Positions 1 to 34,644 of a DNA stretch of 34,644 nucleotides are shown here, piece by piece. Within the stretch, counting starts at the first letter, position 1. Each line of letters opens with the position of its first letter. This DNA is from a virus. The notes beneath the pieces were generated by a model that did no database searches, was not told where the DNA came from, and saw nothing but the letters and a program-made list of their open reading frames with translations. The stretch is from IMG/VR virus record IMGVR_UViG_3300036770_004386, positions 1-34,644 of that record; one strand, 5' to 3'. The translations under genes and the position numbers were made by a program.

Positions 1-159
1 GGGCAACCAAACGTCGCCCTAACCGCCCTAACCGGGCGCAAGAGATTATGGCGGTGGCGAAGACTTTAGGTCAGCCGTTGATGCCGTGGCAGCAGCAGAT
101 CGCGGAGATCGCCACCGAATACGACCCAAAAATCGGTGTGCCGTATTACCGTGAGGTGG
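1..159. repeat. Terminal direct repeat, left copy (contig circularity)
   Basis: Identical to 34486-34644 except for one base (A at 128, G at 34613). The repeat covers the end of the small terminase gene and the start of the large terminase gene. Its copies sit exactly at the two window ends, which is what an assembly overlap of a circular or circularly permuted genome gives. The unit genome would then be about 34,485 bp. A true short terminal repeat cannot be excluded from sequence alone. Confidence 0.93.
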
Positions 160-2329: not shown

Positions 2330-2682
2330 TGGCTGGTTTGGCAGGGATTTACAATATTCTCGCGGATCAAGGTGCTACTTTTGGTCGTACGATCACGTGG
2401 AAAGACGCTGATGGCGATCCGGTTAATGTTGCTGGATATACGGCACGTATGCAGGTCCGATCTACTGCGGCTGATGCTACGGTTGTTTTAGAACTGTCTA
2501 CTACTGATGGTAGGATCACTTTGGGTGGTGTGTTGGGGACGATCACTTTAACTGTTCCTGCTACTGCGATGGCGGCAGTTGAGGCTGGTGCATATGCTTA
2601 CGATTTGGAGATGGTCAACGGGTCAGATGTGACTCGTCTGTTGATGGGTTCGTTCACTGTTCGTGCTGAGGTGACCAGGTGA
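2329..2682 (+). CDS. Tail/fibre-associated Ig-like protein
   Basis: 117 residues, mostly alternating beta strands: [19 protein letters not shown], then [10 protein letters not shown], then RITLGG...[10 protein letters not shown], then YAYDLEMV...[11 protein letters not shown]. This resembles the small BppU-like or Ig-like proteins that precede fibre genes in many environmental phages and probably help build or anchor the fibre. Its stop overlaps the GTG start of the collagen-like fibre gene, so the two are coupled. The family resemblance is from memory. Confidence 0.7.
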
Positions 2683-5072
2683 GTTTCCAGGTGAACGATC
2701 AGCCACCGAAGGTTACGGTAACTGAACAGAACGTATCTGCTGAGATTTCGTTGTCTGGTCAGGGTCCGCAGGGTCCGCAGGGTCCGCAAGGTGTGCAGGG
2801 TCCAGTTGGTCCGCAGGGCGCGACAGGTCCGCAAGGTGCTACTGGTACGCAAGGTTCGCAGGGTCCGCAAGGTGCTACTGGTGCGCAAGGTGTGCAAGGA
2901 CCGGAAGGTATTCAAGGTGCTACTGGTCCGCAAGGTGCGCAAGGTGCGCAAGGTGCGACTGGTGCGCAAGGTGCGACTGGTCCTCAAGGGTCAACTGGTG
3001 CGCAAGGTCCGCAGGGTCCGCAAGGTGTTACTGGTGCGCAAGGTCCGCAAGGTGCTGAAGGTCCTACCGGTCCGCAGGGTTCGACAGGGCCACAAGGTGC
3101 ACAGGGCGATATTGGTGCACAGGGTCCGCAGGGTCCGCAAGGTGCTACAGGTCCGCAAGGTCCACAGGGCGATGTAGGTCCGCAGGGCGATACTGGTCCA
3201 CAAGGGCCACAGGGCGATACTGGTCCGCAAGGTCCGCAAGGTCCGCAGGGCGATACTGGTCCGCAGGGTGATACCGGTCCGCAAGGTCCGCAAGGTGCGC
3301 AAGGTGCGCAAGGTGCACAGGGTCCGCAAGGTCCGCAGGGCGGTATAGGTCCGCAAGGTGATACTGGTCCGCAAGGCGATATCGGTCCGCAAGGTCCGCA
3401 AGGCGATATCGGTCCGCAAGGTCCGCAAGGCGACACTGGTCCGCAGGGCGACACTGGTCCGCAGGGTCCGCAAGGTGCACAAGGTGCTACTGGTGCGCAA
3501 GGACCACAAGGTGCACAAGGTGCTGAAGGTCAATCAACATCATTTTACGATTATAAGGTCAAAACCAGTATCACATCTGGCGACCCTGGTTCTGGCTATC
3601 TCATCTACAATAACGCCAGTCAGACATCAGCCACGCAAATCAATGTCTCACACATAACGTTTGATAATTTCGATGTTGACATTTTCTTAACGTTGCTTGG
3701 TGTTGGCGATGTGATCGTCATCCAAGATTCCACTGATTCCAATGATTTCCAGAAGTGGGAGATCAGTTCCGCACCTACAAGCCAAACTGGATATGTCGAG
3801 TATCCGGTGACGTTGTTGGACAGCGGCGGCGATGGCACTACCGGTTTCGCCAATGATCTTGAAGTTTTGTTTGCGATCTCAACACAGGGTCCGCAGGGTC
3901 CGCAGGGCGCGCAAGGTGCGACAGGTCCGCAAGGTGATCAAGGTCCACAAGGTCCGCAAGGTCCGCAGGGCGATACCGGTCCGCAGGGTGCGCAGGGCGC
4001 GACTGGTGCGCAAGGTCCGCAAGGTGATATCGGTCCGCAGGGTCCGCAAGGTGACACTGGTCCGCAGGGCGCACAGGGCGCGACTGGTGCGCAAGGTCCG
4101 CAAGGTGATATCGGTCCGCAGGGTCCGCAAGGTGATACCGGTCCGCAAGGTGCGACAGGTCCGCAAGGCGCGACAGGTCCGCAAGGTCCGCAAGGCGATA
4201 CCGGTCCGCAAGGTCCGCAAGGCGATATTGGTCCGCAAGGTCCACAAGGTGATACAGGTCCGCAAGGTCCGCAAGGCGATACTGGTGCGCAAGGTCCGCA
4301 AGGTGCAACTGGTCCGCAAGGTGCTACTGGTCCTACCGGTCCGCAAGGTGACACCGGTCCGCAAGGTGCTGAAGGACCACAAGGTCCGCAAGGTGCTACT
4401 GGTGCGCAAGGTGCTACTGGTCCGCAGGGCGCGACAGGTCCACAGGGTCCGCAAGGTCCGCAAGGTGCAATTGGCCCGCAAGGTGCGGAAGGTCCGCAAG
4501 GTGCGACTGGCGCGCAAGGCGCACAAGGTCCGCAAGGTGCTACAGGTGCGCAAGGTGCACAAGGCCCGCAGGGATCTGCTGATTCTGGCACGCTAACCAC
4601 TAAGGGCGATTTGTTGACTCGCACTTCTAGCGCGTTAACTCGTCTTGCTGTTGGTGGCACGAACAACCACGTGCTTGTGGTTGATTCTGGTGCATCAGAA
4701 GGCATCAAATGGCAAGGCGAACAAGAAACGATCATTGTCGCTATCTCAGATGAAAGCACAACTATCACGACAGGCAACGCTAAGGTGACGTTCCGTATGC
4801 CGTTCGCTATGACGTTGACAGCGGTTCGAGCCTCGCTCACTACAGCATCAACGTCTGGTACACCAACATTTGACATCAACGAATCCGGTTCAACGATCTT
4901 GTCAACCAAGATCACAATCGATGCCAATGAATTGACTTCAACTACCGCTGCCACACCGCCCGTGATTTCGGATTCAGCGTTGGCCGATGATGCTGAGATC
5001 ACGATTGATGTTGATACTGCTGGTACTGGTGCGAAAGGTGCGAAAATCTATTTGATCGGGCGGCGTGCCTGA
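2679..5072 (+). CDS. Collagen-like tail fibre protein
   Basis: 797 residues beginning at GTG 2679. An N-terminal beta-rich anchor (residues 1-28, [14 protein letters not shown]) is followed by two Gly-X-Y blocks at about 29-284 and 403-633, dominated by [12 protein letters not shown] and GAT triplets. A globular insert lies at about 285-402 and a C-terminal domain at about 634-797. The C-terminal domain starts with a KGDLL...GGTNNHVL motif that recurs in the protein at 18295. Collagen-like repeats in phage fibres trimerise into rods, so this is probably the long receptor-binding fibre. The underlying DNA is a highly repetitive tract, prone to recombination length changes and assembly error. 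Long reading frames on the opposite strand here are shadows of the repeats. Confidence 0.9.
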
Positions 5073-6330: not shown

Positions 6331-6676
6331 ACTCAGATTGTGCGACTCACCGTTGATTTATTACCCAACGAATCCGGGTCGCAAAATGCGACGGATTGCC
6401 ATGTTTGATGGTGAAATGGAAATCGCTTTTGTCGATTTATTTGTGGAGTCAGATTGGGCGCATTTCATATATGTGTGGGTCCATCCTGACTATCGAGATG
6501 AAAACACCATTTGGCATTACATAAGTAATGCTTTCAACTTTGATTTAGGCACCAAAAACATCTATTGGTTGAATATTGTTCAACCACTAGTTCATTTTCT
6601 ACATAAAATTGCTGATGAACGACCTGATTTAGTTTTCGCCGCTACTGGTGCAACTGATATTGTTTTGAATGGCTAA
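6323..6676 (+). CDS. Hypothetical protein, weak GNAT-like features
   Basis: 117 residues from the ATG at 6323, overlapping the previous stop at 6328-6330. A central strand-turn (FIYVWVHPDYRDENTIWHYI) loosely resembles the beta4-alpha3 region of GNAT acyltransferases, but no clear pyrophosphate-binding loop is visible. It sits between tail genes and a glycosyltransferase, so a role in modifying a fibre or receptor is possible but unproven. Confidence 0.6.
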   Translation: MFELRLCDSPLIYYPTNPGRKMRRIAMFDGEMEIAFVDLFVESDWAHFIYVWVHPDYRDENTIWHYISNAFNFDLGTKNIYWLNIVQPLVHFLHKIADERPDLVFAATGATDIVLNG

Positions 6677-6679
6677 TTG

Positions 6680-7498
6680 ATGCAACCGCCCAAGTTTTCA
6701 ATCATCACCCCGACCTATAAAACCCCGGCCCATCTGCTAGCGCGCACTTGGGCAAGTCTCAAAGCGCAAACCATGACTGATTGGGAATGGGTCGTGTGGG
6801 ATGATACACCGAACAGTGATCAGGTATGGCGACAGTTGTATGGTTTTGCGGCAGATGAGCGTTATTGTTTGCGTGCATTCCGTGGGCATACGCATTCAGG
6901 GTCTATCGGTGAAGTGAAACGCAACGCTGCGATGCTCGCCAACGGTGAAATCATCATCGAACTAGACCACGACGACGAACTGACACCTGACTGTCTAACA
7001 GAATTGGCGCAAACGTTTGATGATCCAGAGATCGGGTTCGCTTACTCTGACTGGTGCGAAATCCTACCTGATGGTCAATCCGGTAGATATCCTAAAGGTT
7101 GGGCATTTGGATACGGGTCAGACTATTGGTCAGACCAATATGGGTGTTGGGTCATGTCCGCACCAGAGATAAACGCCACCACAATAAGCCATATCGTGTC
7201 CGCACCTAACCACGTACGAGCCTGGCGTACAACTGTCTACCGCGAACTAGACGGACACAACCCTGAACTAGAGATCGCAGACGATTACGAACTGTGCGTA
7301 CGCACGTTCCTACATACGAAAATAGCCCGTATCCCCAAGATGTTGTATAGGCAACATGTCGGTCCGATGACTGCACAGCGGCAGAAAAACGCCCTGATTA
7401 AACAGAATGTTAGGCGTATCTCTGAGTCTTACCGGGATGCGATTTATTTGCGGTGTATCGAATTGGGCATGGATGCGCAGGCTATCCCTATATGGTAG
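6680..7498 (+). CDS. GT2-family glycosyltransferase
   Basis: About 272 residues from ATG 6680; a TTG just upstream is less likely. The N-terminus FSIITPTYKTPAHLLARTW and the metal-binding region IELDHDDELTPDC are the GT-A fold hallmarks of family 2 glycosyltransferases, which transfer a sugar from a nucleotide donor. GEVKRNAAMLANGEII is the typical strand and helix just before the DxD motif. It lies between fibre and portal genes, so the likely acceptor is a virion protein such as a fibre or capsid protein. The acceptor cannot be read from the sequence. Confidence 0.85.
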   Translation: MQPPKFSIITPTYKTPAHLLARTWASLKAQTMTDWEWVVWDDTPNSDQVWRQLYGFAADERYCLRAFRGHTHSGSIGEVKRNAAMLANGEIIIELDHDDELTPDCLTELAQTFDDPEIGFAYSDWCEILPDGQSGRYPKGWAFGYGSDYWSDQYGCWVMSAPEINATTISHIVSAPNHVRAWRTTVYRELDGHNPELEIADDYELCVRTFLHTKIARIPKMLYRQHVGPMTAQRQKNALIKQNVRRISESYRDAIYLRCIELGMDAQAIPIW

Positions 7499-11147: not shown

Positions 11148-11387
11148 ATGCGAACACCAATCGTATACGCACAACAGACATGTACAACCACCGACCCGAA
11201 CACAGGGTTGATCGTACGTCTCGTCGAAAACGAACCATGGATCGCCAACGATCCGTTCGTCCTGGCGAAACCAGAACTGTTCGGTGATCAGCCGTTCCGG
11301 TTGCGACGTACCACTCAGGTGGTGTCGGCTCGTCCTGTAGAGACAGCCACGAAAACACCTGGAGAGAAGCGAGCCAAGAATGCCTAG
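11148..11387 (+). CDS. Small head protein, unknown
   Basis: 79 residues with a good GGAGG ribosome site at 11135-11139. It has a short N-terminal strand (RTPIVYAQQTCTTTDPNTG), then VRLVENEPWIANDPFVLAKP, and a basic tail. Proteins of this size and pattern follow the capsid gene in many actinophages and may be minor head or decoration proteins. Its stop overlaps the ATG of the next glycosyltransferase. Confidence 0.7.
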   Translation: MRTPIVYAQQTCTTTDPNTGLIVRLVENEPWIANDPFVLAKPELFGDQPFRLRRTTQVVSARPVETATKTPGEKRAKNA

Positions 11388-12501
11388 CGGCGACGTGCTC
11401 CTAGGCTATCTGCATCCACACGACATCGCAGCATCATTCCATAAAAGTCTCCTAAACCTGGTTGGTTGGGACATGGCACATGATCGCAGACTGTCTGGAT
11501 GGGCCAGCATCAAATGCGCATCAGGTGGTATCCCGGAAGGACGTAACCAACTGGCCAACAATTTCATGTCCAGTGAATGTGACTGGCTGTTCATGGTTGA
11601 CGCAGACATGGGATTTGAATCCCACGCACTAGATCAACTGCTACAGATCGCAGATCCAAAAGATCGTCCTATCGTTGGTGGTTTGGCGTTCGCTCAACGT
11701 GAAGCAGTTGAGGATAACAGCGGCGGATATCGCTGTATCCCACGACCCACAATTTTCGATTGGGTAGAACATACCGATGGTCACCAACGTTTCACCGGTC
11801 GATCGCACTACCCAACCAACAGTTTGGTGAGATGCGCCGCCACTGGCGGTGCGTTCCTGTTGATCCACCGTACAGTGATCGAACAGATCCACCAAGAATA
11901 CGGGCCTACATGGTTTGATCGAGTGCGCGGTAGCGATGGATCATTGATCGGTGAAGACATCTCATTTTTTGCCAGATGTCAAGCCTTAGAAATCCCATGC
12001 CACGTACATACTGGCATCCGGTCCACCCATATGAAACACCTGTGGCTAGGTGAGATCGATTTTTGGCATTCATTCCTCGCACCGCCAGCCACTGAATGTT
12101 TCAATATCTATTTCACAGATAACGGTCAGCCAGACATCCCGTTTTGGAATACGTTGCGCTCTACTACCGGCTGGTACAACAACGTCCATCCTGATATCAA
12201 AACTGCACTTGATGATAACAGCGCAAAGTGGCTGTTGATCACTGCGACTAATGTCCGGTTCCGTAGCAGTTGGTATGATCACGCCATCGATACAGCCAAA
12301 CGTTATGGATGTAAGGTTGTCGGGATGAACGACACTACTACTGTCAGTTCGATGCGTGGCGAGACAGCACGTAGCGTCCTGGTGAACCGTGAATGGCTGG
12401 CTGATCAGAAATGGCATGGTGTAGAATCTCTGGTAGAACTGGCCAAATCACAAAACACGTTCTTGGTGTCTTTGGCGAGTGAGATTGAACAACCAGCGTG
12501 A
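11380..12501 (+). CDS. Glycosyltransferase-like protein in the head module
   Basis: 373 residues. The N-terminal half has a GT-A layout: GIPEGRNQLANNFM, the metal-binding WLFMVDADMGFE, then GGLAFAQRE and CAATGGAFLLIHRTVI, with GEDISFFARCQAL as the acceptor-side acidic motif. After about residue 230 comes a second domain (ITATNVRFRSSWYDHAIDTA, CKVVGMNDTTTVSSMRG) that I do not recognise. Actinophages often carry a glycosyltransferase right after the capsid gene, and some actinophage virion proteins are known to be glycosylated. Capsid or tail glycosylation is therefore the leading idea. Confidence 0.83.
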   Translation: MPSGDVLLGYLHPHDIAASFHKSLLNLVGWDMAHDRRLSGWASIKCASGGIPEGRNQLANNFMSSECDWLFMVDADMGFESHALDQLLQIADPKDRPIVGGLAFAQREAVEDNSGGYRCIPRPTIFDWVEHTDGHQRFTGRSHYPTNSLVRCAATGGAFLLIHRTVIEQIHQEYGPTWFDRVRGSDGSLIGEDISFFARCQALEIPCHVHTGIRSTHMKHLWLGEIDFWHSFLAPPATECFNIYFTDNGQPDIPFWNTLRSTTGWYNNVHPDIKTALDDNSAKWLLITATNVRFRSSWYDHAIDTAKRYGCKVVGMNDTTTVSSMRGETARSVLVNREWLADQKWHGVESLVELAKSQNTFLVSLASEIEQPA

Positions 12502-14939: not shown

Positions 14940-17050
14940 TGGTAGCGAAACGAGCATCACTTGCAGTAAATGTTATCGCTGATGCTACACAGGCTAAAGC
15001 AGCGTTTAAAGAAGCAGAGAAAGCGGCAGGGTCGCTAGGCACTCAGGCCACCAACCTGACTAAGGGTTTGGCTAATGCGTTTGCCACTAAGGTGATCACT
15101 GATTTTGCGAAATCGTCGATCAACGCAGCGTCAGATCTTGGTGAGTCGATCAACGCTGTACAGGTGACGTTTGGTGATGCAGCCGATGGAATCCTAGAGT
15201 TTGGTGAAACCGCATCTAAAACTGTTGGTCTATCAGCGCAGGATTTCAATACTTTCGCGGTGCAGTTTGCTGGTTTCACTAAGCAGATCGCTGGCGCAAA
15301 TGGCGATGTCATCGCAGTTACCGAGGATCTGACGACCCGTATCGCTGACTTCGCGTCAGTGATGAACTTGGATATCCCGCAGGCAGCGCAGGTGTTCCAA
15401 TCATCGTTGGCTGGTGAAACAGAGTCGATCCGTCGTTTCGGTATCGATCTGTCCGCTGCGGCGGTTGCTGCTTTCGCGGTAGAGGAAGGTATCGCAGAGT
15501 CGGCATCTACGATGACTGAAGCGGAGAAGGTGCAGGCGCGTTATGCACTTCTCATGGAAGAAACCGCTAAAACCGCTGGCGATTTCGCCAACACTTCTGA
15601 CAGTTTGGCGAACAGTCAGCGTATTTTGCAGGCTGATTTTAAGAATATGCAGGCGGAGATCGGCCAGGCCTTGCTACCGGTGATGCAAGAGTTGGTGGGT
15701 ATCGCCAAAATTGCGGTTGATGCTTTCACTGCTCTACCTGAGCCGTTGCAGAAAATCATCACGTTTACCGCTGTGCTAGGTGGCGGTTTGGCTACCGCGT
15801 CGCGTTCCTTGCAAGGTTTCGGGTTGGCGGCTAAGACAGCCAATATTGCGGTTGGTGCGCTTGGTGGCGTGATGTTGATCGCTGGTCTTCATGCATCGCA
15901 GGCTGCTGAAGACGCAGCGAAGTTCCAAAAAGAACTTGACGGATTGACTCGCGCTACTGATGACACCATCAAAGCACAATTTGGTGCGACCTATGCTGCG
16001 TCTTTGTTCGCTGGTGAGTTTGGTTCGGCTGAAGAGTTTGTAGCGAAATTGGCGCAAACATCGATAGGCACAACAGAACGTTTGCGAGATCTGGGTCTTA
16101 TCCAGGAACTGCTTGGTTTGACTACTGAGGAAGTCAATGTCATCATTGATGAACAGGTGGCTGGTTTCAAGCAGGCTGAGGCTGACGCAGAGCGTACACA
16201 AAACGCTATTGATGGATTGACTGAGGCGGAAATAGAAGCCGCTGAAGCAACCAGACTGCACAATGAGGAACTGAAGAAACAAGAAGACGCGTTGAATGAT
16301 GTTTTGAACGCGACGTTGGCTCAGTTTAACGCGTCGATCGCCTACGAAAATCAGCAGTTCCGTACCACTGATGCGATCGCAGAGTACGTCACGGCTCATC
16401 TTGAGGCGGCATCTGGTACGCTGTCGGCTGAAGAGGCGACACGTAAGATTGCTGAAGCGCAAAATGCCGCAGCGTCAGAAGCGTTGAATCAGGCTGCTGC
16501 TGTAGCGAGGGTCGCTGAAGAGCAAGCCAAAATGCGTGGTGAGACGCTCACCGCCACTGAATCTGCGGCGTTGCAGATCGCGGAGTTGGAGAAAGTCGCC
16601 AAAACACTTTCACCAACCGATCCGCTCCGTAGGGAGTTGGAAGCGTACATCCGGCAGTTGGGTACGATACCCAAGGATGTTGAAACTGAGTTGAAAGTTA
16701 GTGTCAATGCTTGGTTGAACTCGATGAATGCCGGTGGCGGTGCAGGTGGCGGTCGTGTCACCTTCCGCGCCAAAGGTGGCCCCGTATCCCCAACATTAGG
16801 ACCATACATCGTCGGTGAAGAAGGACCAGAGATTTTCATCCCCGGTCAAACCGGCATGGTTCTACCTAACACTGCATTGATTGATGCGATGGCCACTAAG
16901 CCAAGTTCCGCTGTGGCGGCGAATCAACCTACGGTTATTGTGAATGTGGCTGGTTCGGTGACTAGCGAACGTGATCTTATCGAATCAATCCGACGTGGTT
17001 TGGTGAACTCGCAACGTAATGGATCTCAATTGGTGTACACGAACCTATGA
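14939..17050 (+). CDS. Tape measure protein
   Basis: 703 residues. Ala-rich helices run through most of the protein. A hydrophobic segment lies near residues 275-325 (IITFTAVLGGGLATASRSLQ and GALGGVMLIAGLHASQ). The C-terminus KGGPVSPTLGPYIVGEEGPE, then IFIPGQTGMVLPNT, is typical of tape measure proteins. At about 0.15 nm per residue this predicts a tail near 105 nm, so a siphovirus. The gene is coupled to both neighbours (TGATG at the start, ATGA at the end). Confidence 0.92.
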   Translation: MVAKRASLAVNVIADATQAKAAFKEAEKAAGSLGTQATNLTKGLANAFATKVITDFAKSSINAASDLGESINAVQVTFGDAADGILEFGETASKTVGLSAQDFNTFAVQFAGFTKQIAGANGDVIAVTEDLTTRIADFASVMNLDIPQAAQVFQSSLAGETESIRRFGIDLSAAAVAAFAVEEGIAESASTMTEAEKVQARYALLMEETAKTAGDFANTSDSLANSQRILQADFKNMQAEIGQALLPVMQELVGIAKIAVDAFTALPEPLQKIITFTAVLGGGLATASRSLQGFGLAAKTANIAVGALGGVMLIAGLHASQAAEDAAKFQKELDGLTRATDDTIKAQFGATYAASLFAGEFGSAEEFVAKLAQTSIGTTERLRDLGLIQELLGLTTEEVNVIIDEQVAGFKQAEADAERTQNAIDGLTEAEIEAAEATRLHNEELKKQEDALNDVLNATLAQFNASIAYENQQFRTTDAIAEYVTAHLEAASGTLSAEEATRKIAEAQNAAASEALNQAAAVARVAEEQAKMRGETLTATESAALQIAELEKVAKTLSPTDPLRRELEAYIRQLGTIPKDVETELKVSVNAWLNSMNAGGGAGGGRVTFRAKGGPVSPTLGPYIVGEEGPEIFIPGQTGMVLPNTALIDAMATKPSSAVAANQPTVIVNVAGSVTSERDLIESIRRGLVNSQRNGSQLVYTNL

Positions 17051-22397: not shown

Positions 22398-24281
22398 CTA
22401 GAGCAGATAGTCGTCTAGTGCGGATTCATCTGCGGCGAACCCTGCGTGGCGCGCCCTGATCTTTACAGCCGCTCGCAGCGCAGCGTTACTGGCCTGGACA
22501 CCCATTTCCGTGAGGATCGCTCTAACCTTCCGGCTGGACAGTAGCGGATCGACCTGCAACTCATCCAACTGCGCTACCAGGGCTAGTGCGCCATCGGGGA
22601 GTGGTGCGGCATGGGCGATCTCAAACCGTAGCGGATCTTCACTCATCCGTAATTCCACCTTCTCTGGTACCCAACCCATACGGGCTTTCCTGGTTTTCAA
22701 ACTGTATAGATCGCTACCTGATCGGGTCATCTGCCAAACCACGTCTACATCGTCGTTCTTAGCGGAACTTCCACGCTGTCCACGTTCTAGATCTTTACCG
22801 GCATGGTCTATACGTAGGAACGCGCGACCAGCACGCTTAAGATAGATACCGGTGTTCCTGTAGAACGCACGTACGGTATCGGCCTCGTTTTCTTCACCTT
22901 GCACCGCACGACCGAAAGTGTCGAATACCACCAGTTCCGCATCACACAACTCTGCCAATCTCGCGACCTGCGCGCCGCCAGTTTCACTGTCCAAACTGTC
23001 AATATCCGGTAGCAGTGCATAACGTAGATTGGAAAGGTTGTGTTCTGGCGTATATCCCATCGATTCCAGTCGTTCTGCGAGGTCGTCGGGTGTCATCTCG
23101 TAGTCTAGGTAGAGGACACGTCGCGGTTTCTGCGGATGACCGAAAATTGGTGTGCCGGTGGCGATCGCCGCACACAGCCACAACGCAAGTAGGCTTTTAC
23201 CAGTGCCACCTGGTGCGAAAATCGCATGGGCGCGAGCCTCAGCGATCAACGGTTCCGCCAACCATTCCGCTACCGTATGGTCCTGCTCCCAAAACGTAGG
23301 CCAGTCGATCAACATCCCCAACAGACGTTGGTCGCGATCGTCGCTCGTCGGTTGACCCAACAAGTCATCTAAATCTGGTTGTTCAGTGACGTGTTCTTCA
23401 CGTAGCAGTGATTTGGCTGCGGCACTGCGATCTCCGTTGAAATCGCGACACGCCATATAACCAAACCGGCTGTACGCACCAGCCGGTAGCCATAAGATCG
23501 ACGAGGTGAACACCACCAGCACATCTTGGCCTTTATAACCGACAGTGGCGGATGTGCCTTCACGTGTGGTTTTACCAGGACGTGTCCAATATTGCTCACC
23601 ATCACGATCTGAATGGCTGTAGATCCAACCATCGCGCGACAGCAGATCTTCCCACGTCGTACGAGCGTTATATCTCGCTGCCGGTCCATCACCATCGTTA
23701 GATATTGGTGTAGTAGGTGGTTCAGCCTGCGGATTAGTGATCAAATTGACCAACCATTTGGGCATCGGCGCAGGTTGGATATCTGCCGGTGATCTACCTT
23801 CCACCCAACGGTATGGTGTCCCATTAGGGTGGACCGTTGGCGGTGCGAGAACTTGCCCACCATCACCACGTATATCGATCCCTACACCTAACCGTTTACC
23901 TGCGTCGTTGCGGATCTCCACGGCTGGTGGCGCGAGTAGGTAGAGGTGGCGACCACCGGAGCCGGTAGCCACCTCAACAGTTTCTGGTAGCGCACCGTAA
24001 CGCGATTCCAGTTTGGCGAAACTATCTGATCCTGACTGTTCCAGGTCGTGTTCGTCAATGTCAATGACGATCAGGTTCTGACCGGATGGTTGGGGACCGG
24101 TGGCGACACCAACACCATGGTTGGCGTACATACCGCGATACCAGTTGGAGATCGTCTGCTTATCAACCGTGGCTGCGTGTTGCCAAGCGGTCATGGCAGG
24201 TCGTTTCATCCCTGGTTTGATCGGGAGCACTCGCCAACCTAGATCAGCAAGTTGTAGGGCGGTTTGGAAACTGTCCATCAC
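22398..24281 (-). CDS. Bifunctional primase-polymerase / RepA-like helicase
   Basis: 627 residues. The N-terminal ~190 residues form an archaeo-eukaryotic primase-polymerase (PrimPol) domain: the metal-binding pair in IVIDIDEHD (D74, D76), TGSGGRHLYL with H112, and GVGIDIRGDGGQVLAPPTVH. The C-terminal half is a RecA-fold helicase of the RepA/AAA_25 type: Walker A in IFAPGGTGKSLLA (about 352-364), then RVLYLDYEMTPDDLAERL, the Walker-B-like VVFDTFGRAVQGEEN, and LRIDHAGKDLERGQRGSSAK. It would prime, extend and unwind viral DNA. No other DNA polymerase gene is visible, so this or a host enzyme copies the genome. Cyanophage S-2L, a known Z-genome phage, also uses a PrimPol. The start overlaps the nuclease gene upstream by four bases. 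Confidence 0.92.
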   Translation of the reverse strand: MMDSFQTALQLADLGWRVLPIKPGMKRPAMTAWQHAATVDKQTISNWYRGMYANHGVGVATGPQPSGQNLIVIDIDEHDLEQSGSDSFAKLESRYGALPETVEVATGSGGRHLYLLAPPAVEIRNDAGKRLGVGIDIRGDGGQVLAPPTVHPNGTPYRWVEGRSPADIQPAPMPKWLVNLITNPQAEPPTTPISNDGDGPAARYNARTTWEDLLSRDGWIYSHSDRDGEQYWTRPGKTTREGTSATVGYKGQDVLVVFTSSILWLPAGAYSRFGYMACRDFNGDRSAAAKSLLREEHVTEQPDLDDLLGQPTSDDRDQRLLGMLIDWPTFWEQDHTVAEWLAEPLIAEARAHAIFAPGGTGKSLLALWLCAAIATGTPIFGHPQKPRRVLYLDYEMTPDDLAERLESMGYTPEHNLSNLRYALLPDIDSLDSETGGAQVARLAELCDAELVVFDTFGRAVQGEENEADTVRAFYRNTGIYLKRAGRAFLRIDHAGKDLERGQRGSSAKNDDVDVVWQMTRSGSDLYSLKTRKARMGWVPEKVELRMSEDPLRFEIAHAAPLPDGALALVAQLDELQVDPLLSSRKVRAILTEMGVQASNAALRAAVKIRARHAGFAADESALDDYLL

Positions 24282-24639: not shown

Positions 24640-24726
24640 TTATTTCAGGTAGTGGTTGTCGGTCGCGAGAACGCCCAAGGTGAAACCCAGGACCACGCCG
24701 AGAACAACGCCGATCAAAATCGCCAT
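24640..24726 (-). CDS. Tiny single-pass membrane protein (28 aa)
   Basis: Begins with an ATG that overlaps the stop of the WhiB-like gene (TAATG). It encodes MAILIGVVLGVVLGFTLGVL followed by a short polar end ATDNHYLK. It is one transmembrane helix with regularly spaced glycines, a typical oligomerisation face. Too short for usual gene callers, but coupling and composition support it. Confidence 0.65.
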   Translation of the reverse strand: MAILIGVVLGVVLGFTLGVLATDNHYLK

Positions 24727-25082
24727 TATCGTTCACCTTTGTTCCGTTTCCTACGAAAATATTGACACCTACGGCAGGTGCAGATCATTGGATCAGCGAT
24801 CAGATCATGTCGATGTTTCTGCCGCTGTCGGCTCGTCATCCCTGCAGCGAAAGCATACGGTAGCGGATCAGGGATACTTTCTAAACACCAACGGTAACAA
24901 CGATCGAACACAGGACAGTTATCACAGTACTGTTTGGCGCGTTTCTGTTCTACCACTGACATTTCGCGGTGCAGCGGCTCAAACATATCTGAATTGAGCC
25001 GCTGCCCCGCGATTTTACAGTTGGCGTATTGCTGCCAATCAAACACCTGTAACGCGAGATCGACGTTCGATTTCTGATTCAT
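24726..25082 (-). CDS. WhiB-like protein (early leftward arm)
   Basis: 118 residues. Four cysteines with WhiB-like spacing: YANCKIAG, then YCDNCPVFDRCYRWC, followed by a turn AAGMTSRQRQ in place of the canonical GxWGG. The C-terminus adds a second pair (CTCRRC) and a basic tail. WhiB proteins bind an iron-sulphur cluster and sigma factor and occur only in actinobacteria and their phages. The weakened turn makes this a divergent member. Confidence 0.75.
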   Translation of the reverse strand: MNQKSNVDLALQVFDWQQYANCKIAGQRLNSDMFEPLHREMSVVEQKRAKQYCDNCPVFDRCYRWCLESIPDPLPYAFAAGMTSRQRQKHRHDLIADPMICTCRRCQYFRRKRNKGER

Positions 25083-26985: not shown

Positions 26986-27525
26986 TTAGATTTTCCACTG
27001 CCACCAACGGTACTCGTAACCGTGGCGATCGATCGAATAGAGATATAGAGCCTTCGCCGCTCGTGCGTTGGTCAACCAGTCGCATAGGTCAGCCACATCA
27101 TCGACGATACCGAGGTTCCCTAGGTATCCTGCTGGGTGTGGGTTCCATCGGTTTGATTTGGCCCACGATGCGTTGATCTGCCATGCACCGAACGAACCGC
27201 CAGACGGATCATCCGCATTGTGTGAACAGCGAGGTGCGCCGGTGGCGGTGACATCGCAGCGCGATTCACGCCAGGCGAGATAGTCAAGATGTTGAAGTTC
27301 GTTTTCGGGAAATCCGGCTGCACGTGCCACCGGGATCAAGTTGGGACAGCGAGGTGCGAAAGATAGCGGCGGCACAGTGGTGGTTGTTGTCGGTGGCACT
27401 GTCGTAGTGGTGGTGGTGGGCATCGTGGTGGTGGTGGTGGTTGTTGTTGTCGGAACCGTCGTAACCGCGGTTTCGACGGTGGTACTACAAGCCGATAACA
27501 GGACTATAGCAAATAGGTGTTTCAT
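26986..27525 (-). CDS. Early lipoprotein with lysozyme/transglycosylase-like domain
   Basis: 179 residues. A short signal peptide ends in a lipobox (LLSAC, Cys13), then a Thr/Pro-rich spacer reaches about residue 53. Next comes a lysozyme-like domain: LDYLAWRESRCDVTATGAPR supplies the catalytic-type Glu, and GGSFGAWQINASWAKSN gives the GxxQI motif. It would be anchored outside the membrane, facing the wall. It is encoded in the early nucleotide/replication operon rather than the lysis cassette. Superinfection exclusion or cell-wall remodelling is more likely than terminal lysis. Confidence 0.82.
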   Translation of the reverse strand: MKHLFAIVLLSACSTTVETAVTTVPTTTTTTTTTMPTTTTTTVPPTTTTTVPPLSFAPRCPNLIPVARAAGFPENELQHLDYLAWRESRCDVTATGAPRCSHNADDPSGGSFGAWQINASWAKSNRWNPHPAGYLGNLGIVDDVADLCDWLTNARAAKALYLYSIDRHGYEYRWWQWKI

Positions 27526-28355
27526 CGTCCTGTGCTCCCAAAACCAGTCGCGCCACGCTCACTGTCGTCCAACGGCAGGTTGGCCCACCGTAGGCCAGCG
27601 GCGGTCAACGGCAACGGGACGATCTGCGCCACGCGATCTCCTGGTTCAATCACCTGTGGCTCTGAACCGATATTCCAACAGCAGGCGTACAATTCACCAC
27701 GATATCCCTGGTCGATCACCGATGGTGCGACGAACAACTTCCGGGAGAAAGTACTGCTACGACCTACGATCAAACCCCAAATATCATCAGGGAATTGCAC
27801 CGCGATCTTAGACCGTACGTTCTGGAACTCTCCCGGCTGGATGGTCAGCGGTTGGTCGTCACAGTAGTAGAGGTCAAATCCGGCATCGCCGGTTTTGCCG
27901 GTTTTCGGCTGTTGACCCTCGCCAAACCAACGCATCACCTGTCGCCGGTCCTGCAAAACCACCTGGTGGCGGAAGTTCCGCAACTGTCGCATCAACAACG
28001 GCAGGTTGTCACCAACGATCACCATCGGTTGCGTACGCAACCACGAGACGATCGCACTTTGATAGCCCTGCGTATCGGTGTAGAACACCACCGGCTTACG
28101 GTTGTTGATCGCAAACTGGATCTCCATCGGGACACCCAACGACTTCTGATCATGCGGCAACGACGCAAACAACAAATCCGACTGTAGCAACGCATACTGG
28201 TTGATCTGCTGAATGTACGGACCATCAATGATCTTAGTTCCGAATGCACGGTACGGTGCATAGACAGTATGTCCATCCTCGATCAACAGCGTGCGCACGG
28301 CATCTGATTCTGATGAGCGACCAAAATCAACGCTGGTCGCGAGATAGATATTCAC
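27522..28355 (-). CDS. Fused nucleoside deoxyribosyltransferase-like / dUTPase protein
   Basis: 277 residues. Residues 1-125 resemble nucleoside 2-deoxyribosyltransferases or deoxynucleotide N-hydrolases: NIYLATSVDFG start, LLQSDLLFASL with D60, and SLGVPMEIQFAINNRKPVVF with E78. Residues 155-277 are a dUTPase with its five motifs: DAGFDLY (157-163), GRSS (198-201), VIDQGYRGE (213-221), GDRVAQIVP (239-247) and RGATGFGSTG (267-276). The dUTPase should keep uracil out of DNA. The first domain could break or remodel deoxynucleotides, perhaps removing dAMP in a Z-genome phage, but substrate is unknown. It is coupled to both neighbours. Confidence 0.88.
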   Translation of the reverse strand: MNIYLATSVDFGRSSESDAVRTLLIEDGHTVYAPYRAFGTKIIDGPYIQQINQYALLQSDLLFASLPHDQKSLGVPMEIQFAINNRKPVVFYTDTQGYQSAIVSWLRTQPMVIVGDNLPLLMRQLRNFRHQVVLQDRRQVMRWFGEGQQPKTGKTGDAGFDLYYCDDQPLTIQPGEFQNVRSKIAVQFPDDIWGLIVGRSSTFSRKLFVAPSVIDQGYRGELYACCWNIGSEPQVIEPGDRVAQIVPLPLTAAGLRWANLPLDDSERGATGFGSTGR

Positions 28356-28546
28356 TGTGTCTCCCCTCTGTACAACTTGAATGCGGATGGGTGTGGATGG
28401 ATCTCGATCACACCATCATCCGTACGGATGTATTCGATCTGACCGGTGGTGTTCGCACGCAACTGTGCGTAGACGCGCAGAGCCTCCAACGGGACGTTAC
28501 GTCGCCCTTCAGTCACCGGTCGCAGGTCATCAATGTTGTCATCCAT
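28352..28546 (-). CDS. Hypothetical small protein (64 aa)
   Basis: Starts at an ATG overlapping the stop of the MazG-like gene (ATGGATGA) and ends overlapping the dUTPase fusion. The sequence DNIDDLRPVTEGRRNVPLEA, LRVYAQLRANTTGQIEYIRT and a C-terminal IEIHPHPSAFKLYRGE suggests a small beta-rich domain. No family recognised. Position inside the nucleotide cluster hints at an accessory role. Confidence 0.65.
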   Translation of the reverse strand: MDDNIDDLRPVTEGRRNVPLEALRVYAQLRANTTGQIEYIRTDDGVIEIHPHPSAFKLYRGETQ

Positions 28547-28868
28547 CCCAACAGCCGCTCCTTTTCGCTTGTACCATCTTCGCGTAGACTGCGATATCAA
28601 ACCACGTGTCATCGCTGGCAGTGTCGCCACGTTGGATGGCGGACACTGCACGTTCCATCTTCCCGATCAGGTAGAACAGACAGCCGATCTCAAACGCCGC
28701 CACCTCGCTGAGCGGCGGACGGTTAGCCAACGCCGCCACCTGCTGACCAACAGCGATCAGATCCTTACTGCCATACTCCTGCATCTTGGCCACGGTCTGT
28801 TCAGACTCGAACATCGCGTGGTCCATCCACCAGTCCTGCAACGGCGATACCGGTTCCGTGTATTTCAT
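28539..28868 (-). CDS. MazG-like nucleotide pyrophosphohydrolase (MazZ candidate)
   Basis: 109 residues, all helical. Acidic residues with MazG-like spacing are E55 and E60 (EVAAFEIGCLFYLIGKMERA), E72, and D86/D87/D91 (SDDTWFDIAVYAKMV), which could bind magnesium. The gene overlaps the PurZ-like gene by four bases (ATGA), so the two are made together. In known Z-genome phages, a MazG-type enzyme (MazZ) makes dGMP from dGTP to feed PurZ. The same pairing here makes that the leading function. Family identification is good; dGTP specificity is inferred. Confidence 0.78.
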   Translation of the reverse strand: MKYTEPVSPLQDWWMDHAMFESEQTVAKMQEYGSKDLIAVGQQVAALANRPPLSEVAAFEIGCLFYLIGKMERAVSAIQRGDTASDDTWFDIAVYAKMVQAKRSGCWDG

Positions 28869-29920
28869 CGCGGCCTCCAGATAATCGTGCTGTTCGATGT
28901 GGTGAACGCTGCGAACTGGACACCCATCGCACGCTCATACCCTTGGATATCAGACCAAGCGACCGAATCGCGCAAACGATCCAGATCAGTTGCACCAGCC
29001 AAAGCAGGGTCAAGATAATCAACAAATGTCAACACCGGGTGGAGACGTGGGTAGTTCCGTCCACCGTTGGCGATGATCGCTTCATCAGCGAGCATATCGT
29101 CCCACTGTGCAACACGACGGATCTTCTTCGTGACTGTCGTCCGCTCCGGCTGGATATAACCGCCAGTTTGCGCCGCCAACGTTTCCCAATCCGTCTCCCC
29201 AAACATCGGACCAGAGTTCCCTGCCACGCGGATGGGGAAGGTGCGGAACACAACCCAATTGTGCGTCAAGTTGTGCGGCTGGATACCGGTCTGCGCCAAG
29301 AAATGGACAGCAGCGCAATCGTTGGACGTACAGTAAGGGTAACGTCCTGCGTGTAGACCAAGCGCATAACCCTGTGTACCTTCGATCAGGATATTGGACC
29401 CATCCTCGTGTTCGGCCTGCAACATGGCGGTGGTGTTCGGGTGGATCAGATCATCCCCAACCACCTGATCCGCCAGCAGTGCCTTACGCATCAAACGGTC
29501 TGCACGTGCCGCACCAATACCCTTAGCGGTGGAGCCGAACTTCTCTTGCAGGCTGGCGGTGGCCTCACCATCAATATGGTCTTGAGTCAACATCGTCGCT
29601 TGACCATCAACATGGAGACGTTTCCGCACTTCAAACCCTGCGTCTTCCAACATGGTGATCTCATGTTCCAACACCGACAGGTCGATCTCGCTACCTGCAG
29701 CGATCACCAATTGACATTCAGGATCGACCACTGCTGCGACGGGGATCGTACGCAACGCCCAAACACGACCTTGGTCGTCCACCGCTGAGTGGCCAGCGTT
29801 CGGACCACCGACCCGTACTGCGTAGCGGATGTCGTGCAAGGTGTGGATCTGTGCGGCGACGTGACCTTTAGCCTCGCTACCGTACTGTCCACCAACAACA
29901 ATGTGAATGTTACCTGCCAT
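28865..29920 (-). CDS. purZ: PurZ-type adenylosuccinate synthetase homologue (2-aminoadenine pathway)
   Basis: 351 residues from ATG 29920, with GGGAA upstream; the longer frame is unlikely. The fold markers of adenylosuccinate synthetases are present: QYGSEAKG (residues 12-19), GGPNAGHS (38-45, H44), GSTAKGIG (129-136) and EGTQGYALGL (180-189). The usual GDEGKG has become GSEAKG: the catalytic Asp (Asp13 of E. coli PurA) is Ser15. That Asp-to-Ser/Gly change marks PurZ, which joins dGMP and aspartate to make the precursor of 2-aminoadenine (Z) nucleotides. The enzyme sits beside a MazG-like gene and a PrimPol, as in Z-genome phages. A plain host-like PurA is unlikely given the lost Asp. Confidence 0.88.
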   Translation of the reverse strand: MAGNIHIVVGGQYGSEAKGHVAAQIHTLHDIRYAVRVGGPNAGHSAVDDQGRVWALRTIPVAAVVDPECQLVIAAGSEIDLSVLEHEITMLEDAGFEVRKRLHVDGQATMLTQDHIDGEATASLQEKFGSTAKGIGAARADRLMRKALLADQVVGDDLIHPNTTAMLQAEHEDGSNILIEGTQGYALGLHAGRYPYCTSNDCAAVHFLAQTGIQPHNLTHNWVVFRTFPIRVAGNSGPMFGETDWETLAAQTGGYIQPERTTVTKKIRRVAQWDDMLADEAIIANGGRNYPRLHPVLTFVDYLDPALAGATDLDRLRDSVAWSDIQGYERAMGVQFAAFTTSNSTIIWRPR

Positions 29921-31185: not shown

Positions 31186-31368
31186 ATGACCACTTACACC
31201 ATCACCTACACCACTGATCAAAACTGGACCGGTACGATCACCAAATACGACGAACTGGAAGCAGAACTCACCGCCAACGGATTGCTAGGAGTTCTGATCG
31301 CAAAAGGCACGATCGCCAACGTTCGACTCACCGTTGACAACACACTGATCAACGAATGGGAATACTGA
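31186..31368 (+). CDS. Hypothetical small protein (60 aa)
   Basis: Two bases after the previous stop. Beta-strand pattern TTYTITYTTDQNWTGTITKY, then a helix (DELEAELTANGLLG) and strand IANVRLTVDNTLINEW. Compact alpha/beta domain with no recognised family. Sits directly upstream of the methyltransferase. Confidence 0.65.
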   Translation: MTTYTITYTTDQNWTGTITKYDELEAELTANGLLGVLIAKGTIANVRLTVDNTLINEWEY

Positions 31369-31370
31369 CC

Positions 31371-32519
31371 ATGGCAACTTACGGATCACTCTTCAGTGGC
31401 GTAGGCGGATTTGACATGGGCTTTGACCAACAAGGCTACCAATGTGAATGGCAAGTTGAATGGGACCAACACTGCCAACAAGTGCTGCAACACCACTGGC
31501 CAGAAACACCCAAATACCTAGACGTACGAGACGTACGTGGTGACCAAATCACACCAGTAGACGTGATCATCTACGGATCGCCCTGCCAAGACCTGTCCGT
31601 AGCAGGTAGACAACGAGGCTTAGAAGGCGAAAAATCATCGATGTTTTTTGAATCAGTACGTATCTTCAAGGAGATGAGAGATGCAACCAACGGAACCTAC
31701 CCAAGAATCGTTGTTTGGGAAAACGTGCCTGGAGCACTCACCAGCAACAAAGGACGAGATTTCTACACCGTCCTCACACAACTGGAAAACATTGGGTCAC
31801 TATCACAATGGTGGAGTGTGCTGGATGCGCAACACTTTGGAATCCCCCAACGACGTAGACGAGTATTCCTCATCTCTGTCTTTGATCCTGCAATCGTTGA
31901 ACGAACAGGACATGGCGACCTTCTCCCTGTCACCACGGGCCGCACAGGGAGTGCTTCGACGAGCGCAAAAACGCAACAGACCACTACCACCACGACTGCA
32001 GACAGCACTGGAACAACTAGCCCAATCGGATTTTCCCACAACGCAGGACTGAACCACCAAGCATCAGACGAAGTGTTCCCCACACTGCGAGTCAGCCAAG
32101 GTGGACGACTGTCAGTTCTCACAGATCAAGAACCGCTGTTCTTCCACCCACATTTCCACGACGGTGCACGAGTTCAACACGGTACGTTGAACACCATCAC
32201 CGCACGATGGGGAACAGGTGGCAACAACACAGATATGGTGGTACTGCCAGTATCCACCCTAACCGCACACCTGAAACACGGTGTTGACGCGGAATCCGCT
32301 GCAGGTGGCCACCTCATCCCAACTGGCCAAACCACGATCAGACGGTTGACACCAACTGAATGTGAACGGTTGATGGGATGGCCAGATGACCACACCCTAT
32401 TTCGAGCAGATGGTAAAACCAACAGCAACAGCCAACGGTACAAAATGTGCGGAAACGGAGTGGCAACACCAGTCGCCGCATGGATCGCCAAACACCTGAA
32501 ACCACTATTGGAGAACTGA
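31371..32519 (+). CDS. DNA (cytosine-5) methyltransferase
   Basis: 382 residues from ATG 31371. All key C5-methyltransferase motifs are present: I (YGSLFSGVGGFDMGF), IV (IYGSPCQDLSVAGRQRG with the catalytic PC), VI (VVWENVPGAL), VIII (PQRRRRVFLIS) and X (KMCGNGVATPVAAWIAKHL). A Thr-rich low-complexity insert lies before the target-recognition region. No restriction partner is adjacent, so it probably protects phage DNA from host enzymes. Target sequence unknown. Confidence 0.92.
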   Translation: MATYGSLFSGVGGFDMGFDQQGYQCEWQVEWDQHCQQVLQHHWPETPKYLDVRDVRGDQITPVDVIIYGSPCQDLSVAGRQRGLEGEKSSMFFESVRIFKEMRDATNGTYPRIVVWENVPGALTSNKGRDFYTVLTQLENIGSLSQWWSVLDAQHFGIPQRRRRVFLISVFDPAIVERTGHGDLLPVTTGRTGSASTSAKTQQTTTTTTADSTGTTSPIGFSHNAGLNHQASDEVFPTLRVSQGGRLSVLTDQEPLFFHPHFHDGARVQHGTLNTITARWGTGGNNTDMVVLPVSTLTAHLKHGVDAESAAGGHLIPTGQTTIRRLTPTECERLMGWPDDHTLFRADGKTNSNSQRYKMCGNGVATPVAAWIAKHLKPLLEN

Positions 32520-32797: not shown

Positions 32798-33202
32798 GTG
32801 ACACCGACGTTCTACCAACACGCACTCTGTCGTAACACAGACTCGAACTTGTTCGTCCCACCATACCGCGCCAGCCAGATCACAGCCGCACGTAAAATCT
32901 GCAACCAATGTCCAGTACAAACCGAATGTTTGAACTACGCACTAGAAACACAAAAAACCGAACAACTGTTAGGTATCTACGGTGGACTTACCGAAACCCA
33001 ACGCGAGAAAATACTCCATCAACAGACTGACAGACCACGACCACGACGCACGACACGCAAACCAACCCACGGCACGCTGTACTCCTACCGGGTCGCAAAA
33101 TGTCGCTGTGATATGTGCAGAGCCGCACACGCACGTACCGTCTCACGCCAACGGAAAACGCGCCGGAACAGTTCCGGCACATATCAGGCGGAGAACACCT
33201 GA
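32798..33202 (+). CDS. WhiB-family regulator with extra C-terminal zinc motif
   Basis: 134 residues from GTG 32798. WhiB features: C11 (ALCRNTDSNLFVPPY), ICNQCPVQTECLNYAL giving C-x2-C-x5-C, and the GIYGGLTETQR turn. After a basic linker, HGTLYSYRVAKCRCDMCRAA is a second metal-binding motif shared with the protein at 29910. WhiB phage proteins can reprogram host sigma-factor-dependent promoters. Likely an early regulator of host or viral genes. Confidence 0.88.
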   Translation: MTPTFYQHALCRNTDSNLFVPPYRASQITAARKICNQCPVQTECLNYALETQKTEQLLGIYGGLTETQREKILHQQTDRPRPRRTTRKPTHGTLYSYRVAKCRCDMCRAAHARTVSRQRKTRRNSSGTYQAENT

Positions 33203-34210: not shown

Positions 34211-34507
34211 GTGGCCACAAAAAAGAAAATCGAACAGCCGGTTTACGGCAGGAACCGCACCGCTATCGAGCAGACCATCAACGCACTAGATGTCGCCGGT
34301 AGGTTAGAATTGGTGGATAACGCCCAACTTGCTATCTGCCGTTCGCTCGCTGATGCGGTGGATAGCGACCCGACCAACGCCAGTTTGTGGCGCGAATATC
34401 GCGCCGCAGAGTTGGCTTTGAGAACCGCCAATGCCCAAGACACAGACGAGTTCACGACGCTCCTCGCCAGTTTGTCAGCCGAGGTGGGCAACCAAACGTC
34501 GCCCTAA
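34211..34507 (+). CDS. terS: Terminase small subunit
   Basis: 98 residues from GTG 34211 with AAAGG seven bases upstream. Short, helical and charged: NRTAIEQTINALDVAGRLEL, NAQLAICRSLADAVDSDPTN, LWREYRAAELALRTANAQDT. Size, helical content and position directly before the large terminase match small actinophage terminase subunits that recognise packaging DNA. Its end overlaps the extended start of the large subunit across the circular join. Confidence 0.85.
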   Translation: MATKKKIEQPVYGRNRTAIEQTINALDVAGRLELVDNAQLAICRSLADAVDSDPTNASLWREYRAAELALRTANAQDTDEFTTLLASLSAEVGNQTSP

Positions 34508-34644
34508 CCGCCCTAACCGGGCGCAAGAGATTATGGCGGTGGCGAAGACTTTAGGTCAGCCGTTGATGCCGTGGCAGCAGCAGATCGCGGAGATCGCCAC
34601 CGAATACGACCCGAAAATCGGTGTGCCGTATTACCGTGAGGTGG
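34431..34644 (+). CDS. terL: Terminase large subunit, 5' part (continues at position 160)
   Basis: The frame of the large terminase runs from ATG 34431 through the window end, then continues at position 160 of the left end after the shared 159-bp overlap. It supplies about 34 residues missing from the left-end copy, beginning MPKTQTSSRRS. It overlaps the small subunit gene by 77 bases. A later start at 34533 (equal to 48) is the alternative. Confidence 0.75.
   Translation, partial: MPKTQTSSRRSSPVCQPRWATKRRPNRPNRAQEIMAVAKTLGQPLMPWQQQIAEIATEYDPKIGVPYYREV
34486..34644. repeat. Terminal direct repeat, right copy
   Basis: Duplicate of positions 1-159 with one mismatch (G at 34613 versus A at 128). 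The change is silent in the terminase frame (CCA to CCG, both Pro), consistent with a population variant. Confidence 0.93.

Follow-up and report, generated by a model that had tools for sequence, protein, structure and literature searches.

The locus raises the question of whether a small virus that encodes a homologue of adenylosuccinate synthetase makes 2-aminoadenine (Z) for its DNA and, if so, with which set of genes. The window analysed here is the whole stretch of 34,644 nucleotides of the IMG/VR record IMGVR_UViG_3300036770_004386, and its features are collected in Table 1. We read the locus as a PurZ0-type Z cassette in a complete small actinophage, acting by the mechanism proposed below, and we give this reading a probability of roughly 0.75. 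An earlier note, made from the letters alone, had drawn attention to the synthetase homologue; the DmtZ-DutZ gene, a conserved gene of 109 residues and the absence of the DpoZ polymerase are additions to it.

Table 1. Position of the features in the window
Feature	Position	Strand	Basis or remark
Direct terminal repeat, left copy	1..159		End comparison
Direct terminal repeat, right copy, 1 mismatch	34486..34644		End comparison
PrimPol (PF09250) fused to an AAA_25 helicase-type domain	22398..24281	-	Sole polymerase candidate found in the genome
Predicted DmtZ-DutZ fusion, 277 aa: NDT-type dAMP hydrolase/transferase and dUTPase-type dATP/dGTP diphosphohydrolase domains	27522..28355	-	Domains, alignment
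Short ORF, 64 aa from an inner ATG, between MZ and DmtZ-DutZ	28352..28546	-	
MZ, 109-aa predicted four-helix protein	28539..28868	-	Directly after purZ; 4-base overlap with the purZ stop
Predicted purZ0, N6-succino-2-amino-2'-deoxyadenylate synthetase, 351 aa	28865..29920	-	NF038379 over cut-off, residues, tree
GSEAKG motif, residues 14-19	29864..29881	-	Ser15 codon at 29876-29878

The open reading frame of the synthetase homologue begins with an ATG at 29920 and ends with its stop at 28865. Its translation keeps the PurA scaffold motifs that the earlier note had listed (NAGHS at residues 41-45, GSTAKGIG at 129-136 and EGTQG at 180-184) and, as claimed there, reads GSEAKG where PurA has GDEGKG, so that Ser15, encoded by AGC, replaces the catalytic Asp of PurA. 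In the alignment this position is Asp in the E. coli PurA and in the archaeal PurA 5k7x, and Ser in all the phage PurZ and PurZ0 proteins compared; the change of the second G of GDEGKG to A is common to the PurZ0 of Ghobes, Wayne and Archimedes. The protein keeps residues found only in PurZ, namely S15 (S23 in S-2L), S130 (Thr in PurA) and T261 (T273 in S-2L, Gly in PurA). The dGMP pocket of S-2L PurZ, residue roles being taken from PMC8342488, is kept at G14, S15, N41, A42, S130, T131, Q183, Y196, C197, T198, R231 and V232. Profile searches agree with the PurZ claim of the earlier note: the NCBIfam model NF038379 'PurZ' matches with 314 bits for a cut-off of 300, Pfam PF00709 (PurA/PurZ family) with 137.9 bits and PHROG 1211 with 258.7 bits, and all the PurA equivalog models stay far under their cut-offs. 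The closest phage proteins, at 40-50% identity, come from Streptomyces, Gordonia, Microbacterium, Arthrobacter and Micrococcus phages and are annotated as PurA-like or as 2-aminoadenylosuccinate synthetases.

The phylogeny places the protein with the phage PurZ0 proteins and away from PurA. In an IQ-TREE analysis of 48 proteins, with the archaeal PurZ-like sequences left out, it groups with the proteins of loci L013, L016, L014 and L024 (support 100/99), its nearest kin being L013 at 61% identity. This clade sits inside the PurZ0 group (91/98), among the PurZ0 of Ghobes, Wayne and Archimedes; the group arises once in 97% of 200 bootstrap trees and is separate from the E. coli and archaeal PurA (three PurA-type sequences in all, some on long branches) and from the PurZ of S-2L and phiVC8. 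The fragment of PurZ0 structure 7vf6 lies at zero distance from the PurZ0 of Gordonia phage Archimedes, and a Flavobacterium phage PurA-like sequence groups, oddly, with the Ochrobactrum PurZ. On the curated model, the residues and the tree, assignment of the protein to PurZ, in the PurZ0 subgroup, is well supported; production of dSMP/dZMP is the best reading of its function, with a predicted preference for dGMP over IMP.

At the position of Gln308 in S-2L PurZ the window protein has Asp301, and Asp is likewise present in PurA and in every PurZ0 compared. In PurA the Asp at this position reads the guanine of GTP, and GTP would thus be a likely donor for the window enzyme. A sentence in PMC12884076 gives the preference of PurZ0 and of PurZ as 'ATP and GTP, respectively'; this is at odds with the use of ATP by the S-2L and phiVC8 PurZ (PMC8342488), and we therefore do not rely on that sentence.

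The genome is complete and small. The first 159 bases of the window recur at its end, from which it follows that the record is complete and terminally redundant, with about 34.5 kb (about 34,485 unique bases), in line with the very small genome of the earlier note; the moderate GC content noted there is about 0.53. Two WhiB-like proteins, at 24726-25082 (-) and 32798-33202 (+), indicate an actinobacterial host, and the relatives infect Streptomyces, Gordonia, Microbacterium and Arthrobacter; both support the designation as an actinophage.

On the minus strand of the window the gene order is purZ0, MZ, a small ORF and dmtZ-dutZ. The small ORF was not seen in the nearest relative (L007/L013). 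The last gene matches the fusion of Wayne type: its residues 149-276 form a dUTPase domain that aligns to the DutZ of Ghobes and Wayne, and Tyr6, Asp12, Pro57, Asn77 and Glu103 of the Ghobes DmtZ are all kept as Y4, D10, P34, N52 and E78, the lid residue W124 being Ala in the window. In PMC12884076, Tyr6, Asp12, Asn77 and Glu103 are critical by mutation, the Wayne fusion hydrolyses dATP, dGTP and dAMP and carries out the transfer to the Z base, and DmtZ-DutZ is reported as the pool-control enzyme of PurZ0 phages, with DutZ in 98 of 98 purZ0 genomes and DmtZ in 85 of 98, fused in 77 of these. Hydrolysis of dAMP and transfer to the Z base are predicted for the window protein as well. Searches of the window for DatZ, MazZ, MazZ-2 and DUF5664 gave no match, and no phage PurB was found in it, though many purZ0 relatives encode one. 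Several purZ0 loci are ordered purZ, MZ, purB, dmtZ-dutZ; a PurB-like lyase lies between MZ and dmtZ-dutZ in L145, L153, L155, L162, L164, L166, L169 and L172-L174.

The gene directly after purZ0 belongs to an undescribed purZ0-linked family that we name MZ. Its matches among named phages number 31 (Microbacterium 18, Gordonia 6, Streptomyces 5, Curtobacterium 1, Micrococcus 1), all of them non-Arthrobacter purZ0 actinophages, and in Microbacterium, Gordonia and Streptomyces the search with purZ gave the same numbers. Arthrobacter phages gave zero MZ matches, while 105 Arthrobacter records have purZ; in Wayne and Preamble, which infect this genus, purZ is followed by a gene for a DUF5664-type dATP/dGTP diphosphohydrolase, as Pfam confirmed for Wayne. 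A scan of IMG/VR with MZ as query found 65 loci and, with the annotated phages included, purZ lies just upstream on the same strand in 72 of 73 loci and a dut gene is present in 72 of 73, the exception in each case being due to a contig end. A search with PurZ0 as query was used to avoid the bias of an MZ query: in the best 80 of its 263 loci, MZ follows purZ in all 77 that have at least 1 kb there, and neither DUF5664 nor DatZ was found among these 80. Among cellular genomes MZ matches a single contig, which was binned with freshwater Verrucomicrobia and is probably of viral origin. Two things are new: that MZ goes with purZ0, and that some PurZ0 phages, described below, lack PolA; neither was seen in the available part of the 2026 survey, whose main text contains neither 'PrimPol' nor 'hypothetical', and the 2023 paper that defined PurZ0 may mention them.

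AlphaFold2 (36 sequences) predicts four helices for MZ with a pLDDT of 94. Against Pfam and NCBIfam nothing rose over a curated cut-off, nothing close was found among PHROG and PDB sequences, and a Foldseek search of the PDB gave no significant fold, with weak hits to iMazG (probability 0.33, E 3.8), DR2231 and E. coli MazG. In BFVD, the hits outside its own family are DUF6378 and Nmad1 proteins, with probabilities mostly of 0.9-0.99 (0.9-0.98 for DUF6378) but E-values of 0.04-0.5. PHROG 474 matches 6 of 36 MZ members (best E 2.7e-4), and the Ochrobactrum gp31, labelled 'phosphofructokinase' under this PHROG, is DUF6378 by Pfam (5e-23). MZ and DUF6378 share co-linear YG...K..R...D(S/T)..D...Y motifs, and an hhalign comparison with a small set of aligned DUF6378 sequences runs co-linear over 73 columns but is weak (P 0.017, probability 2.7%); the Pfam cut-off of DUF6378 (PF19905), 27.1 bits, is not reached, the best score, 12.8, lying inside the MZ gene of the record of L070. 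MZ may thus be a distant relative of DUF6378. In 289 genomes of the Verrucomicrobia phylum DUF6378 gave no match, and neither did the positive control. Sequence similarity of MZ to DUF5664 of the Wayne type was not found (hhalign P 0.6; no match to the DUF5664 model). MazZ (P 0.23), MazZ-2 and an Ochrobactrum-type NTP pyrophosphohydrolase are likewise unsupported by hhalign, in all these cases a weak test with templates mostly of single or few sequences. In Ochrobactrum phage OH, the DUF6378 protein at L085:1475-1975, directly upstream of purZ, carries the PHROG label 'phosphofructokinase', which looks wrong.

The polymerase content of the window is the other departure from the described cassettes. 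No match to PolA (PF00476)/DpoZ, PolB or PolC was found in the terminally redundant genome, and its PrimPol keeps the AEP residues D76, T106, H112 and D136. A search that had the known records of Ghobes, Archimedes and Goodman as positive controls found PolA in 14 of 32 purZ0-MZ records and not in the other 18; a further 12 records are without it. Besides the window, terminal repeats are present in three records without PolA (G001, 126 bp; G020, 123 bp; G026, 99 bp), and these lack PolB and PolC too. In them and in the window the repeats rule out a fragment artefact; such an artefact may lie behind the absence in unclosed contigs. PrimPol is present in the window and in 15 of the 18 PolA-less records, and on the PurZ0 tree the presence and absence of PolA require five changes. 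Of the known Z phages, S-2L alone is described as lacking PolA, all the others having it according to PMC8342488 (2021); its PrimPol is reported to be unable to tell A from Z, dATP being removed by DatZ (PMC8065100, PMC8342488).

The mechanism that we propose integrates these genes. DmtZ would destroy dAMP, or transfer the deoxyribose phosphate from it to the free Z base, and PurZ0 would join dGMP and aspartate to give dSMP. The host PurB and host kinases would complete dZTP; the host lyase is proposed because the window shows no phage PurB. In the nucleotide pool MZ would probably supply dGMP or remove dATP. With dATP scarce and dZTP abundant, Z would enter the DNA through the phage PrimPol or a host polymerase, as in S-2L; with no DpoZ, this incorporation would rest on the depletion of dATP and not on a selective polymerase. 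The virion DNA of the window phage would then contain Z; this expectation, like the activities of the cassette enzymes and the role of MZ, is a prediction from gene content. Four points weigh against the reading: the Ala in place of the DmtZ lid residue W124, the missing phage PurB, a replacement that might be partial with no Z-selective polymerase, and an MZ protein in which neither a fold nor a motif of the known nucleotide hydrolases could be assigned.

Three other readings of the genes and of the DNA have to be weighed against this one. The virion DNA may be only partly substituted, an A/Z mixture giving partial protection from restriction, with a host polymerase or the PrimPol copying either purine. 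The missing PolA, and with it any Z-selective DpoZ, speaks for this, as does the S-2L PrimPol, which is reported to make no distinction between A and Z (PMC8065100), and full replacement of A is less certain here than in Wayne or Ghobes for want of DpoZ; but S-2L, also without PolA, replaces all its A by dATP depletion (PMC8065100), and in the window DmtZ-DutZ would do the matching job, which leaves a mixture unlikely. We consider it very improbable that the DNA is canonical and that the cassette mainly depletes the host dATP or disturbs the host pool: DutZ and DmtZ do remove dATP and dAMP in phages related to this one (PMC12884076), but such depletion needs no dSMP-forming enzyme, Ser15 and Thr261 are kept with purZ0 throughout the family, and the literature treats PurZ0 phages as Z-DNA phages. 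Hardly credible is a diverged phage PurA still making adenylosuccinate from IMP, for which one could invoke the PF00709 score and Asp301, kept as in PurA. The Asp is common to the PurZ0 relatives and is thus no argument for PurA, and against such an enzyme stand the opposite outcomes with the PurA and PurZ models, Ser15, Thr261 and the placement in PurZ0.

For MZ the choice lies between an enzyme and a partner. From the gene position we predict a nucleotide-pool enzyme, or a partner, that feeds PurZ0, and action in the pool, probably supplying dGMP or removing dATP, is the most likely role by analogy, because Arthrobacter phages have a dATP/dGTP hydrolase in the same slot. MZ might instead be no enzyme at all and act on PurZ0 as a partner or regulator, whether a complex subunit, a chaperone or an inhibitor of a host pool enzyme. 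Its strict adjacency to purZ0, its small size with N-terminal extensions that vary in Galactica, Parvaparticeps and Olihed, and the lack of an assigned fold or of a recognised motif of a known nucleotide hydrolase all suit such a protein, which we hold to be the less probable of the two and still a serious candidate. The DUF5664 hydrolase of the Arthrobacter phages argues against it, and so do 15 invariant, mostly polar residues (W13, K28, E31, Y32, L37, G41, E60, Y66, G69, K70, R73, S85, D87, D91 and Y95) that resemble an active site.

The cassette can be set beside the known ones. With Ghobes and Wayne the window shares the PurZ0 clade, Ser15, T261 and the presence of DmtZ and DutZ downstream, and the fusion of these two is also that of Wayne; gp51 of Ghobes is a MZ homologue annotated merely as hypothetical. 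Unlike these phages it has no DpoZ/PolA, it lacks the DUF5664 of Wayne and the annotated PurB of Ghobes, and its 34.5 kb compare with 39-83 kb in the named records. Like S-2L (datZ, mazZ, purZ and PrimPol) it has a PurZ, no PolA and a PrimPol as sole recognised polymerase, and specificity is expected from dATP depletion; it differs by belonging to the PurZ0 clade and not the PurZ clade, by Asp301 for Gln308, and by DmtZ-DutZ and MZ instead of DatZ and MazZ. Vibrio phage phiVC8 and the Acinetobacter PurZ phages would take the same committed PurZ step, with a different clade and different pool enzymes (DatZ and MazZ-2 or DUF5664-DUF550, with a PolA-type DpoZ).

In earlier descriptions a PurZ0 cassette consists of PurZ0, DutZ, DmtZ and DUF5664, and a dedicated DpoZ polymerase goes with it. 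Our data indicate that one more component, missing from these descriptions, is kept beside purZ0 in nearly all phages of this kind, and that there are complete PurZ0 genomes which lack DpoZ. We see an even chance that two things hold jointly: that MZ takes part, so far unrecognised, in PurZ0 Z-DNA synthesis almost everywhere outside the Arthrobacter phages, as a new class of enzyme acting on dGTP/dGMP or dATP and distantly akin to DUF6378; and that a broad set of small viruses resembling actinophages, convergent with S-2L and arisen more than once, makes Z-DNA without a Z-selective polymerase. If Z-DNA is made in the PolA-less phages, polymerase selectivity would be dispensable in a second lineage besides S-2L. 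The genes purZ0, MZ and dmtZ-dutZ form a small natural Z-DNA gene set of about 2.4 kb that is directly testable.

Some further observations concern the polymerases and the remaining genes. In L058 (record G020) the PrimPol seems to be divided between two frames, L058:6206-6997 and L058:7001-8410. The PolA frame at 6355-7320 (-) of G340, the record of L137, holds one in-frame TAG, which could be a reassigned stop codon or an error, and two large purZ0-MZ records, G333 (80,875 bases, L136) and G334 (72,977 bases, L175), gave no match in a search for PolA alone. The window encodes a long collagen-like protein with GPQGPQG repeats at 2679-5072 (+), and, among the structural genes, a glycosyltransferase family 2 gene at 6677-7498 (+) and a second glycosyltransferase-like gene at 11380-12501 (+). 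Its C5 cytosine methyltransferase gene, at 31356-32519 (+), contains an ORF in another frame at 31681-32052 (+); the nearest relative, L007, also has a methyltransferase gene with an inner ORF (L007:15133-16806 with 15638-16039), and the tail of the inner ORF looks conserved in the comparison of the window with L007 (LSPRAAQGVLRRAQKR / LSPKAAEGILRRAERR).
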